From NCBI GenBank assembly GCA_021780815.1, contig JAJXYC010000003.1, positions 1 to 64,000 of the forward strand: a stretch of 64,000 nt of DNA. The letters run 5' to 3'. How positions within the stretch are numbered: the first letter of the stretch is position 1; every line of letters starts with the position of its first letter. The position numbers were made by a program, and so were the translations under genes. The DNA comes from Bacteroidota bacterium. GTDB taxonomy: Bacteria > Bacteroidota > Ignavibacteria > Kapaibacteriales > UBA2268. This document shows, piece after piece, positions 7,879 through 12,543 of the stretch. The notes beneath the pieces were generated by a model, which was given only the letters and a program-made list of their open reading frames with translations, was not told the origin of the DNA and did no database searches.

Positions 7879-7886
7879 TAATTTTG
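7879..7886 (+). promoter_or_regulatory. Candidate Bacteroidota-type -7 box
   Basis: TAATTTTG matches the TAnnTTTG -7 consensus known for Bacteroidota sigma factors, 29 bases before the ATG of the GT5-like gene. No clear TTTG -33 box is seen at the expected distance, so support is weak. Confidence 0.4.
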
Positions 7887-7915: not shown

Positions 7916-9400
7916 ATGGCTTCCAGACCAATTAATGTGTTATATGTAACCAGTGAATCATTGCCATATATAAGAATACAATCGCTCGGAGATATATCGT
8001 ATTCTTTTGTTATGGCGATGAGAGAACAGGGAGTAGATATAAGGTTAGCAATGCCCCGCTACGGAATAATATCTGAACGTCGGCACCAAATTCATTATAT
8101 TAAAAGGCTAACTGATTTACCGATTCCTATTGGTAAGGAAAGTTATCCATCATCAATCAAATCATCTTCAATGAACTCTCCAAGAACAAAAGTACAAGCT
8201 TATATTACAACTAATGAATATTACTTTACTTCGAGGAAAGGGGTTTATAGAGATGCTAAAACATTAGAACTTTATCCTGATAATAACGAAAGATTCTTGT
8301 ATTTTTGTCGTTCTATTGTTGAAATGTGTAATCTAACTGAATGGGTGCCTGACATTATTCACTGTGTCGATGGTGAAACTGCCTTAATTCCAGCACTGTT
8401 TAAATTAACTTATCCTGAAAAATTTGAAAAAACTAAATTTGTTCTTTCAATTCATACTTTTGAAGAGCAATATATTTCTGGAAAAAGTTTTTTTGAAAAA
8501 ACATCTTTGCCAAAAGAATATAAAGATTATTTTATACACCAAAATAAATTTAATTTTTTGAAAGCAGGAATTGAATTTGCTGATACAGTTGTGTTTTCAA
8601 ATAGAAATTATTATGAAACAAACCTGGCAAATCCAGATATTAGTGGTGGGTTAATGGGCTTATTGGCAAGCAAAGATGTGCAAGTTTTGCCTAATGGAAT
8701 TGACCCTTGGTCTTGGGATATGCGAAAGGATAAACAGATTTGTTCAAAGTATGAAAATGATTTAGAAGAATTTAAATATAATAATAAAGTTAGTTTATCT
8801 CAAAAATTTGAATTAGATTATGACCCAAGTATACCTATTTTGGGATTAATTTTAGATGTTAATGAATACGAAGCAATTGAATATTTCATTGAAAATGCCC
8901 CTGCAATCTTTAAAGATGAAAATATTATGATATTAGCTTTGGCACGAGTAGAAACCAGATACAAAAATACATTAAACTTATTAGCAAAGAAATATAAAAA
9001 ATCATTTAGAGTACAATTTACCACTGATTTATCTTTATTCCATCAACTGTTTGCTGGCTCGGATTTTTACTTGTCTTTGGATAATCACGACCCAACAAAT
9101 ATGAATTTGGCATTTGCAGCCCGTTACGGGGCTATACCTGTTGCAAATGATTTTTATGTTGATAAAACTCTTTTTAAGTCGATAGATGAAAAGAAAGGTT
9201 TTGCTATACTTTTTGAGAAAAAGAAAGTTGAAGAGTTCCATAAAGCAATTGAAAAAGCAGTTAAAATATTTAATAATAAAGAAACGTTCAATACAATAAT
9301 TGAAAGTGCAGTTGCACAAAAGTTTAGTTGGGATAATTCCGCTAAAGAATTTAAAACTATTTATACAAAACTTTTAAAAGGCGCAAAACTTGAAAAGTAA
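7916..9400 (+). CDS. Glycogen/starch synthase-like protein (GT5 fold), probably not catalytic
   Basis: 494 residues that follow the layout of GlgA. The N-terminal half begins INVLYVTSESLPYIRIQSLGD where GlgA has the KTGGL/DV loop. The second half has LPNGIDPWSWD at the GlgA NGID-WD position and a GSDFYLSLDNHDPTNMNLA stretch aligned to GlgA FEPCGLNQ. The ADP-glucose-binding Lys of KTGG, the Arg/Lys of the SR-QKG loop, and the Glu and STGG-type loop near the C-terminus all appear to be lost. I infer a pseudoenzyme or a strongly changed donor specificity. It is followed by a lipoprotein gene that overlaps its last 11 bases and then by a barrel gene. Confidence 0.7.
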   Translation: MASRPINVLYVTSESLPYIRIQSLGDISYSFVMAMREQGVDIRLAMPRYGIISERRHQIHYIKRLTDLPIPIGKESYPSSIKSSSMNSPRTKVQAYITTNEYYFTSRKGVYRDAKTLELYPDNNERFLYFCRSIVEMCNLTEWVPDIIHCVDGETALIPALFKLTYPEKFEKTKFVLSIHTFEEQYISGKSFFEKTSLPKEYKDYFIHQNKFNFLKAGIEFADTVVFSNRNYYETNLANPDISGGLMGLLASKDVQVLPNGIDPWSWDMRKDKQICSKYENDLEEFKYNNKVSLSQKFELDYDPSIPILGLILDVNEYEAIEYFIENAPAIFKDENIMILALARVETRYKNTLNLLAKKYKKSFRVQFTTDLSLFHQLFAGSDFYLSLDNHDPTNMNLAFAARYGAIPVANDFYVDKTLFKSIDEKKGFAILFEKKKVEEFHKAIEKAVKIFNNKETFNTIIESAVAQKFSWDNSAKEFKTIYTKLLKGAKLEK

Positions 9401-10613
9401 TTTTAATATAAAAATTTTATTGTATTCGTTTTTTTTATATAGTATATCTTTTTTAATTTCTTGTAATGAAGCTCCCACAGATACAGGATACAATCTTATT
9501 AACGATACAATTTCCGTAAACGTTGTAACATCTGATACTACCCAGTTGATATATAAAACAGATACAAAAAGTTTCTCCCCTTGTGTAGCAAATGCAAATG
9601 TCTTATTTTGCGGGAAGTCGGATAATATCCAAGCCGCTTCAATCATTAGATTTGCGTATCTACCCGATTCACTCTCTTACTTGAAGGAAAGCGATATTGT
9701 CTCTGCCAAACTTACATTATTCCCTAATAGATATGCTTTAGGCGATACAAATAATGCGAATTTTAGTTTCACTTTAAAAAAAGTTGAAAATTATTGGAGT
9801 GTTAATGCAAACTGGGACTCAATTTCAGTACCTGGATTTATGAGTAGAGATGTGGGTATCTATTCAGGGAAAATTTTACTGCAAGACACTATACCTGCAA
9901 TTACAATTGATATTGACAAGAAATTAATAACTGAATGGTTCCAACTTAAAACCGATACATTAGCTGCTGTTGTAAATTGGGGAGTTGCATTAATTCCCGC
10001 ACAAAGTTCAAATGTAATTTACAGCTTTGGTGGTGAAGGTATTAGTCAAACCACAGACAAAATACCAACGTTACAAATAATATACAACGATAGCACAGCT
10101 CATTTGGATACTTTATACCTTTATGCAGGTTTAAATGCAGCTTTTTTAAATTCAACTTCAAACAATAATGATGATATTGTTATTCAAGGAGGGTTCGATA
10201 TACGGACTAATCTTTATTTTAATATAAATCAAATTCCCCCTTTTGCTAATATTAGTAAAATGGAATTAGACCTTACTTTAAATAAAGAAAAATCCCTTAT
10301 TGGAAATGATACATTAAAAACTTTGTTTAGAATTGATTTTGTAAGTGATACAACAAAAAGTATGTATGGTAATTATTATTATTATGCAGTAAAATCTGAT
10401 TCACTTAGTGATGTTTATAGTTGTGTAAGTGTTACATCTGCCGCACAAGTTTGGAATAGATTTGATGGTAAAGGTATTTTGCAAATTGGTGCTGCCGATT
10501 TCGCTTCGCAATATCAAGTACTGGATAAATTAGTCTTTTACGGTATTAATGACCCTGACCCAGCAAAAAGACCAAAAGTAAGAATAGTTTATACAAAACA
10601 ATCAAAAAGATAA
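9390..10613 (+). CDS. Predicted lipoprotein with DNRLRE-like repeats, TTG start
   Basis: 407 residues. A hydrophobic signal (about 9-25) ends in the lipobox LISC, so the protein is probably lipidated and envelope-bound. The body is beta-rich and Asp/Thr/Ser-rich, with segments such as IIRFAYLPDSL and DIVSAKLTLFPN that resemble DNRLRE-type or DUF4270-like surface proteins; I do not recognise a precise family. No ATG lies before the signal peptide. The TTG at 9390 sits inside the end of the upstream gene and has AAAAGG eight bases before it, so translation is probably coupled. An outer-membrane barrel gene follows after 26 bases. Confidence 0.7.
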   Translation: MKSNFNIKILLYSFFLYSISFLISCNEAPTDTGYNLINDTISVNVVTSDTTQLIYKTDTKSFSPCVANANVLFCGKSDNIQAASIIRFAYLPDSLSYLKESDIVSAKLTLFPNRYALGDTNNANFSFTLKKVENYWSVNANWDSISVPGFMSRDVGIYSGKILLQDTIPAITIDIDKKLITEWFQLKTDTLAAVVNWGVALIPAQSSNVIYSFGGEGISQTTDKIPTLQIIYNDSTAHLDTLYLYAGLNAAFLNSTSNNNDDIVIQGGFDIRTNLYFNINQIPPFANISKMELDLTLNKEKSLIGNDTLKTLFRIDFVSDTTKSMYGNYYYYAVKSDSLSDVYSCVSVTSAAQVWNRFDGKGILQIGAADFASQYQVLDKLVFYGINDPDPAKRPKVRIVYTKQSKR

Positions 10614-10639: not shown

Positions 10640-11884
10640 ATGAATATTAAAAAAAACATAACTTTAACATTGTTTTATTTCAGTCTAATGCTTGTATTTA
10701 CTAAAACAAGTTTTTCGCAAGGTGGCTCAAATTATTCAATATTAGGATTCGGAGATATTAACCAAGTTATTTCAGCAAGTTATGAAGGTCTTGCTGGGAC
10801 TGCAATTGCTATCCCAAGTTCTAACTCAATAAATATAATAAATCCTGCACTCATTTCACTTGTAACAGATACACGTTTGCAAGTAGGTTACAATTTTAAT
10901 CAAAATATTGTTACAACTGCAAATTCTAATTTATGGCAAAATAATGGCGGTGTGAATGGTATTAATGCCTTATTTGCGTTGGATACCACAGCCAAAGTTT
11001 CTGTTGCATTAGGATTAATTCCCGCTTCAAAAGTTAATTATTTAGTTGCTAAATCTTTTGTTGTCCCTTATAATAATGGTGAGTTGCATGGTAAATCTCT
11101 TTATAAAGGTTCGGGGGGATTATCTTCCCTTTATTTAGCTTTGGGAGCTAATGTTGTTGATAATTTATATCTTGGGGCAAATGTCTTCGGTAATTTTGGC
11201 TCTATCAATTACAATAATACTATATCTTACCTGGAAGATTATACTTTTACTAATACTTTTAATCAACAAGATTATTTTTCTGGTTTTGGCTATAAATTCG
11301 GGCTTTTTTACCAATTCCCATCTAATTTTAATATTGGTGCTTATTATTCAAACTATGGTTCAATTAAGATAGATAGAGTAAAATCTTATTCATCAGATTT
11401 ATTAAAAGATACTACTTTTACGGAATCTTTAAATGTTAATCCCCCAAGTTCCTTTGGTGTTGGAATTTCGTATCAAACAGGCAAATTTTTAATTGGCGCA
11501 GATTGGAAAGTTTTAAATATTTCAAATTTGAACTATGGTTTTTCATTGGATAATAAATTTAAAAATTCTACCGAAACATCAATTGGAGTAATTAGATTTG
11601 GCAATACTATGCCTGGTACAAATTATGCTGATAGAATTACTTATAGGTTTGGTGCAGGGTATAATGCTTTATATTATGAAATTGCAAATACAAATATTAA
11701 CGAAATAAATTTGTCCGTTGGGGCTTCTTTCCCGATTGGTTATAGCGGGCTATTAGATGTTGCGGCTATTTTTGGGCAAAGAGGGACAACTAACAATGGG
11801 TTATTAAATGAATATTACGGCAAGTTAATGATTGATTTTAGCATTGGAGAAGGTTGGTTCCATCCGTATAAACGTGAATATTAA
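10640..11884 (+). CDS. Outer-membrane beta-barrel protein
   Basis: 414 residues. The signal peptide ends about residue 26 (TSFSQ, Gln-ending as is usual in this group). The rest alternates aromatic and small polar residues (GFGYKFGLFYQF, NIGAYYSNYGSI, GVGISYQTGKFLIGADW), which is typical of a transmembrane barrel. The early segment YEGLAGTAIAIPSSNSINIINPAL resembles the start of FadL/PorV-like barrels. The function is unknown. It is probably the third gene of an operon with the GT5-like protein and the lipoprotein; hslV starts 20 bases downstream. Confidence 0.7.
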   Translation: MNIKKNITLTLFYFSLMLVFTKTSFSQGGSNYSILGFGDINQVISASYEGLAGTAIAIPSSNSINIINPALISLVTDTRLQVGYNFNQNIVTTANSNLWQNNGGVNGINALFALDTTAKVSVALGLIPASKVNYLVAKSFVVPYNNGELHGKSLYKGSGGLSSLYLALGANVVDNLYLGANVFGNFGSINYNNTISYLEDYTFTNTFNQQDYFSGFGYKFGLFYQFPSNFNIGAYYSNYGSIKIDRVKSYSSDLLKDTTFTESLNVNPPSSFGVGISYQTGKFLIGADWKVLNISNLNYGFSLDNKFKNSTETSIGVIRFGNTMPGTNYADRITYRFGAGYNALYYEIANTNINEINLSVGASFPIGYSGLLDVAAIFGQRGTTNNGLLNEYYGKLMIDFSIGEGWFHPYKREY

Positions 11885-11904: not shown

Positions 11905-12465
11905 ATGAAAATGAAAACAAATAAAGATTTTTATCCCGAAGTCCGTTCTACAACTGTTATAGGTGTTTTAAAAGATGGGCATTCTGTTCTGGGTGCTGAT
12001 GGGCAAGTTACTTTCGGAAATACCGTGATGAAAGGTAATGCAAAAAAAGTTCGGACATTATACGATGGACAAGTTTTAGCAGGTTTTGCAGGAGCAACCG
12101 CTGATGCTTTTACTTTGTTGCAAAAATTTGAAGAGAAACTTGAAACTCATCGTGGTAATTTACAGCGTGCTTCTATTGAACTTGCCAAAGATTGGCGAAC
12201 AGATAGATTTTTACGTAAATTAGAAGCTATGCTTATTGTAATGAATAAATCTAATATCTTCTTAATAAGTGGTACAGGCGACGTTGTAGAACCAGAAGAA
12301 AATGTGATTGCTATTGGCTCGGGTGGCAATTTTGCGTATGCTGCTGCTTCTGCTTTAATCCAACATTCTAATTTATCTGCTCGTGAAATCGTAGAAGAAA
12401 GCTTGAAAATTGCATCGAAAATTTGTATTTACACTAATTCAAATTTTGTAATAGAAGAACTGTAA
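11905..12465 (+). CDS. hslV: ATP-dependent protease proteolytic subunit HslV
   Basis: 186 residues with the Ntn-hydrolase signature. The mature protein should start at Thr16 or Thr17 after a short propeptide, reading [20 protein letters not shown]; the N-terminal Thr is the catalytic nucleophile. The [14 protein letters not shown] segment matches the HslV core. HslV works as a dodecamer capped by the HslU ATPase; hslU is not next to it here and must be elsewhere if the system is complete. The first two Met codons are three codons apart, so the exact start is open. A perfect hairpin terminator follows. Confidence 0.95.
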
Positions 12466-12507: not shown

Positions 12508-12543
12508 TAATACTCAATCATCACTGATTGAGTATTATTTTTT
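12508..12543 (+). terminator. Intrinsic terminator after hslV
   Basis: A perfect 13-bp stem (TAATACTCAATCA with its complement), a four-base loop TCAC, then T6. It closes the 7916-12465 transcription block. Confidence 0.9.

Follow-up and report, generated by a model that had tools for sequence, protein, structure and literature searches.

The window analysed here, a stretch of 64,000 nucleotides, carries on its forward strand a compact run of four genes that opens with the frame of a glycogen-synthase-fold protein of 494 amino acids (7916..9400), referred to below as GT5L, in which the donor site has been replaced. It is followed by bamH (9390..10613), coding for an outer-membrane lipoprotein with a lipobox-like FLISC motif; by bamG (10640..11884), coding for the FadL-like outer-membrane barrel subunit of the Bacteroidota BAM; and by an hslV-like gene for a proteasome-family protease subunit (11905..12465; PF00227, E 4e-28), the last of the run. 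The genes are tightly packed, with bamH overlapping the end of GT5L, stop codon included, by 11 bases and with gaps of 26 and 20 bases at the next two junctions. A hairpin with 13 pairs and a T run behind it, resembling a terminator, lies 3' of hslV (12508..12537, forward strand), and at the other end of the operon a candidate promoter element of the Bacteroidota -7 type, TAATTTTG (7879..7886, forward strand), was read by eye against TAnnTTTG, which we take to be the consensus.

The barrel matches the NCBIfam BamG equivalog NF053685 at 226.1 bits (E 7.5e-67), below the cut-off of 250 bits, and, since the match covers nearly the whole model, we regard it as a clear BamG homologue and not as a certified equivalog. 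The same model is matched by 29/29 members of the barrel family, the one in the window included, and residues 15-408 align with the PDB chain 9n2d_B, named 'Bam G' (E 8.5e-24). For the lipoprotein, sequence searches with the window protein against the PDB and against the DUF4270 and NCBIfam BamH profiles gave no match, and a profile of its family found only unrelated weak matches in the PDB, with no BamH among them; of its 45 relatives, four match DUF4270 (best 3.3e-10), two match BamH_bt and one BamH_fj, the last two models weakly. Its assignment as a BamH homologue therefore comes from fold comparison: the predicted structure (pLDDT 88.6) finds the BamH chains 9hjm_G (E 3.0e-13) and 9n2d_C (E 1.1e-11) with Foldseek, and the three top matches of VIA-align are BamH chains (9hjm_G, Z 20.9; 9n2d_C, Z 20.4; 9his_G, Z 17.6). 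After these chains, the neighbours of the model are carbohydrate-binding modules and prodomains of the TGF-beta family, with Z up to 13.5. According to the available passages of two reports published in 2025, BamG and BamH are core subunits of the Bacteroidota BAM, and in Flavobacterium johnsoniae their genes carry distant locus tags, Fjoh_1412 and Fjoh_0823, whereas those of the window are adjacent (PMC12611786, PMC12578637).

GT5L is recognised by the GT5 catalytic-domain profile PF08323 at 156.6 bits, well above its cut-off of 22.7, and a sequence search of the PDB returns GlgA and the starch synthases as the best relatives. Against the NCBIfam glgA model TIGR02095 it scores 263.8 bits, below the cut-off of 328.45, and its top NCBIfam model is the 'starch synthase' PRK14098 (NF010698), presumably of chlorobial origin, at 271.9 bits, with a model cut-off (754) far above this value. 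The AlphaFold2 model, built on an alignment of 58 sequences, has a mean pLDDT of 93 and superposes on E. coli GlgA (2qzs) with Z 43.8 and rmsd 2.1 over 463 residues, showing the full two-domain GT-B fold and the same order of motifs; the GlgA layout recognised in the initial annotation is thus borne out by profile and by structure. The nearest named relative found is a protein of a Candidatus Kapaibacterium MAG (63% identity; L093, in our numbering of loci). Among the fold matches there is also VldE (PDB 4f97), a pseudo-glycosyltransferase of another GT family (Foldseek E 1.5e-13, 11% identity), in which a GT-B fold serves a changed chemistry; VldE is a working enzyme.

In GlgA, ADP-glucose binding and catalysis depend on K15, R300, K305 and E377. 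The phmmer and MAFFT alignments place R20, D314, E319 and D392 of GT5L at these positions, so that none of the four residues of an active GlgA is present. The changes lie in four regions of the forward strand, namely the former KTGGL loop (7973..7990; residues 20-25, RIQSLG, with K15 replaced by R20), the former diphosphate loop of R300 and K305 (8855..8878; residues 314-321, DVNEYEAI, fixed in a clade of five sequences that includes the window), the former E377 loop, FEPCG in GlgA (9083..9106; residues 390-397, NHDPTNMN), and the region of the former TGG loop (9146..9172; residues 411-419, NDFYVDKTL). These alignments agree with the loop readings of the initial annotation (RIQSL, LDVNEYE, HDPTN and NDFYVDK). 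Its statement that all known ADP-glucose contacts appear changed is too strong: charge is preserved in K15R and E377D, and D26, H180 and N260 of GT5L correspond to D21, H161 and N246 of GlgA without substitution; what stands is the replacement of the four residues named above. An ordinary glycogen synthase misread by eye was considered and rejected, as the alignments pair R300 with D and K305 with E and the model fits GlgA from end to end. The His-Asn pair of GlgA reads His-Thr in GT5L; a passage of PMC6086201 gives this pair as strictly conserved and KxGGLGDV as the donor motif. With the basic diphosphate-binding residues now acidic, the glycine loops gone and the frame open under apparent purifying selection, the data support the initial suggestion of either a GT5 pseudoenzyme or a protein of new activity, and, judged from its residues, GT5L very probably does not transfer glucose from ADP-glucose.

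Phylogenetic trees were calculated after the removal of 21 near-duplicate GT5 sequences, with L171 out of both and with L164 and sequences of 420 amino acids or less out of the full-length tree. The latter unites 115/115 GT5L proteins in a clade that excludes 14 canonical GlgA, with a modest support of 0.676; the tree of the N-domain, short forms included, places 142/146 in one GlgA-free clade, again with modest support (0.87), and the four outside are deep full-length sequences (L168, L169, L170 and L172). Among the 115 full-length proteins, all four catalytic residues are kept in 83, three in 12, two in nine, one in five and none in six; in one of the 12 (L120), K15 is missing merely because the N-terminus is cut. 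As most orthologues hold all four residues, the ancestral GT5L was probably an enzyme. The loss is not confined to a single sequence: the copies of five genomes share it, reading RDED in the window, L033, L034 and L036 and RDEE in L035. Both basic residues are lost at five places of the tree, and, as two of these lie within one family, this amounts to at least four lineages, namely the window clade, L052, the family f2 and the Chlorobiaceae. All four residues have changed in a different way in L062 and L125 (N, K, Q, P), and the Chlorobiaceae proteins read R, S or H, Q and E. The Chlorobiaceae copies of PRK14098 fall inside the GT5L clade and have likewise lost R300 and K305, but differ from the copy of the window in having no adjoining bamH. 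Given that relatives carry intact orthologues in the same operon, catalysis has been lost recently and more than once, and its loss does not define the family. The genome of the window also holds a second GT5, otherwise a canonical GlgA (L086; genome G000, contig C16, 194997-196445, reverse strand), which has a Thr at the K15 position (IATAGGLGD); L088, of the same genus, has the normal Lys.

In 53 GT5L loci besides that of the window, taken from the genomes of 60 relatives, bamH lies directly downstream on the same strand in 46, and bamG comes next in 42 of the 43 loci able to show it. The view of the initial annotation that the locus is unlike glycogen metabolism is supported, its lipoprotein and barrel being BamH and BamG homologues in conserved synteny. 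The surroundings behave differently: murE is kept upstream in 3/44 loci, a control that rules out an accidental neighbourhood, and hslV is found downstream in 16 of the 42 comparable loci. GT5L, bamH and bamG form a conserved unit, while the genes upstream and downstream of it change. No bamH or bamG was seen near canonical GlgA in the seven GlgA loci examined. In a set of named genomes with 80 GT5L loci, a BamH relative is present in 62 and a BamG relative in 50. The seven loci in which bamH does not follow directly comprise one near a contig end (L083) and six with bamH elsewhere in the genome; the six genomes with the two genes apart belong to the Kapabacteria order. GT5L is absent in G002 and G004 and reduced to a fragment in G017, and, as these genomes also lack bamH and a genuine bamG (G002 has a weak barrel match of 25 bits only), these are probable assembly gaps.

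A further form of the protein occurs in Bacteroidia. In 30 of 34 genomes of the phylum, chosen and not drawn at random, we found a short GT5L of 247-296 amino acids (roughly 270) that ends before the donor domain. BamH lies directly downstream in 21 of the 30 when DUF4270 and a lipoprotein profile are used as independent searches; the count rises to 25 with DUF4270 and an iterated lipoprotein profile, a figure that is partly circular because this profile was seeded with the adjacent reading frames. In three of the 30 (G066, G061 and G198) the two genes are apart. A common order in Bacteroidia is a divergent panC/panD-like pair, named by eye, GT5L, bamH and a reading frame of 611-615 amino acids, one of which is glmS by profile. 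The GT5L profile finds matches of any length, at E 1e-20 or better, in 211 of 218 genomes drawn from one Bacteroidia order; the draw holds no reduced symbiont genome below 1.4 Mb. This short orthologue is very probably the 'GlgA-GT5 fragment' of Bacteroidetes, from which the protein of the window differs in being full length; the fragment is mentioned in a 2024 review (PMC11046441), in a passage that is silent on BAM and on bamH. The available text of the Nature 2025 paper on BAM places bamH of F. johnsoniae at fjoh_0823 and describes, for one depletion system, an inducible promoter derived from the 100 bp that precede fjoh_0824, a use of the neighbouring gene that fits a shared operon.

Several lines of evidence indicate that what has been kept is the protein, and in particular its N-domain. 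Four relatives have the frame at an identity of 62-65%, and its dN is only a small fraction of dS, so that chance can be dismissed as its origin. The copies of the window clade are 60-84% identical with their frames open, and in the decayed pair L034/L035 the dN of GT5L is 0.087 against a dS of about 2.3, which is near saturation, so that their ratio is rough and holds to an order of magnitude; dN is 0.206 for bamH and 0.190 for bamG in the same pair. By this measure, the decayed frames, which stay open, are under purifying selection. Column identity in the C-domain is 0.475 in decayed forms against 0.588 in intact ones, and in the N-domain 0.631 against 0.638. The former donor positions have, in addition, become conserved anew: within the five sequences of the window clade their conservation reaches 0.70, compared with 0.57 over the remaining C-domain (3% of random draws are as high), and the family f2 has a fixed replacement of its own where the window clade has DVNEYEAI, which looks like reuse rather than drift. 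The N-domain bears a signature, R43, G50, E54, R55, R64, L65, K82, Q94 and W143 (most of it, residues 43-94, at 8042..8197 of the forward strand, with W143 beyond), conserved across intact (83), decayed (20) and short (30) forms and for the most part lacking in the 14 canonical GlgA; the count leaves out L120, L164 and L171, and its decayed set is made of low scorers and nine hand-chosen loci. Nothing else hints so strongly at a constant function of the family that would reside in the N-domain and be other than ADP-glucose chemistry.

The occurrence of GT5L next to bamH across much of the Bacteroidota suggests a retired sugar enzyme that has been kept for the building of the outer membrane. 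We propose that GT5L is a cytosolic, non-catalytic descendant of the GT5 enzymes, whose N-domain has a job tied to outer-membrane biogenesis, a reading to which, as a whole, we give a probability of about 0.42. Within it, the link to BAM is rather likely to be real and not a mere relic of gene order. No signal peptide is evident by eye, which makes GT5L unlikely as a direct part of the outer-membrane complex, and no GT5-like protein is named for the BAM purifications in the available parts of PMC12611786 and PMC12578637, which agrees with a cytosolic protein but also counts against the link to BAM.

That GT5L might still be an enzyme, one that transfers another ADP-sugar, such as ADP-heptose, or acts on an envelope acceptor, with the copy of the window representing a pocket rewritten for a different donor, is an unlikely but serious alternative. 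It draws on the 83 full-length proteins with an intact site, on donor positions conserved anew instead of drifting, and on the neighbourhood. In Ignavibacteria-type loci a GmhB-like phosphatase gene stands between GT5L and bamH, and in Chlorobiaceae it comes after GT5L. GmhB-like heptose-bisphosphate phosphatases follow GT5L in L142, L133, L150, L160, L262 and L264, which are loci of the Ignavibacteria type, Kryptonia, Thermochlorobacter and Chlorobiaceae, with a BamH relative further on except in Chlorobiaceae. A GlgC scoring over the NCBIfam cut-off was found in none of 13 genomes of Kapabacteria, Chlorobiaceae and Bacteroidia, most of which have GlgA-type genes; a supply of ADP-glucose is therefore doubtful in these genomes, and, given the GmhB-like neighbour, a donor of the ADP-heptose kind is attractive. 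However, a diphosphate-binding site whose two basic residues have become acidic is ill suited to a nucleotide-diphosphate donor, and Bacteroidia have dispensed with the whole donor domain while retaining the N-domain.

A second explanation, which we consider doubtful, sees in the arrangement an old gene order, with GT5L doing an unrelated cytosolic job and hosting the promoter of the operon but not working jointly with the product of bamH. The linkage is not obligatory, as the nine genomes with the two genes apart (the six of the Kapabacteria order and the three with short forms) testify, and two Chlorobiaceae genomes hold GT5L and a GmhB-like gene with no bamH match and a weak barrel match only, so that GT5L can persist without BamH and BamG. 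The available text of the Nature 2025 BAM paper states that Chlorobiota lack both subunits; in contrast, Thermochlorobacter/Chlorobiales MAGs (L151, L159, L160 and L163) have weak BamH relatives near GT5L, at 118-166 bits. In KSB1/Calditrichota (L157, L162 and L165), an intact GT5L precedes genes that by eye are STAS-like, polysaccharide-export-like and chain-length-regulator-like; the place of GT5L beside polysaccharide-export-like genes would be in keeping with an old order, and the BAM link may thus be a later one. Against this stands a linkage that spans Kapabacteria, Ignavibacteria and Bacteroidia though the flanking genes change, and a promoter alone is no explanation, since the protein sequence of GT5L is itself strongly selected.

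It is improbable that GT5L still works as a glycogen synthase by virtue of an active site that tolerates the substitutions. The conservative nature of K15R and E377D and the kept equivalents of H161, D21 and N246 would be compatible with it, as would the Chlorobiaceae, whose protein (R, S or H, Q, E) is accompanied by no second full-length GT5 in the two genomes listed in full; yet R300D and K305E together reverse the charge of the diphosphate site, two glycine loops are gone, and none of the four Chlorobiaceae genomes tested has a GlgC over the cut-off. Least of all do we believe in a decaying pseudogene, with GT5L a superfluous second copy of glycogen synthase in the course of being lost. 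The other GT5 on contig C16 and the loss of the active site in several lineages might be invoked for it, but the frames are open, identity remains at 60-84%, dN (0.087, against a dS of about 2.3 in L034/L035) is lower than in bamH and bamG, and conservation of the N-domain is undiminished in the decayed forms.

Returning to a non-catalytic GT5L tied to the outer membrane, its mode of action can be sketched tentatively. In GT-B enzymes the N-domain is the acceptor side. A candidate basic and polar site of this domain, specific to the family (R43, E54, R55, H60, R64, K82, Q94 and W143) could bind a conserved anionic ligand or a partner protein, the ligand being perhaps a phosphorylated envelope precursor. 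Binding would then tune the production of BamH and BamG, or their handling before export, to envelope supply. The donor half of GT5L would be dispensable for such a role; depending on the lineage it is intact or rewritten, and Bacteroidia have lost it. A ligand-sensing or regulatory mode of this kind is conceivable and somewhat less than an even bet. Its most explicit form, in which GT5L serves BAM as a dedicated partner in the cytosol, retired repeatedly and cut down to the acceptor domain in Bacteroidia, which senses an envelope precursor and sets the amount of BamH and BamG made or delivered, is speculative and, as a complete account, unlikely.

BamG, BamH and the fragment were each known separately, and a search of open-licence PMC papers found none that ties the 'GlgA-GT5 fragment' gene to BAM; what is new within that search is the recognition of the fragment as a gene of the bamH operon, together with its full-length orthologues, intact and decayed, and its signature. 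Nor did the available passages of the literature yield a description of how production of BamG and BamH is matched to that of the rest of the envelope. The Bacteroidota include major gut commensals and oral pathogens, and a widespread gene directly upstream of bamH, labelled so far as a glycogen synthase or GlgA fragment, offers a testable handle on BamH and BamG production in these bacteria. From the point of view of protein evolution, GT5L provides a natural series of enzyme retirement, with intact, partly decayed, rewritten and domain-deleted forms in the same operon, and it shows which part of a protein is retained once catalysis is lost.
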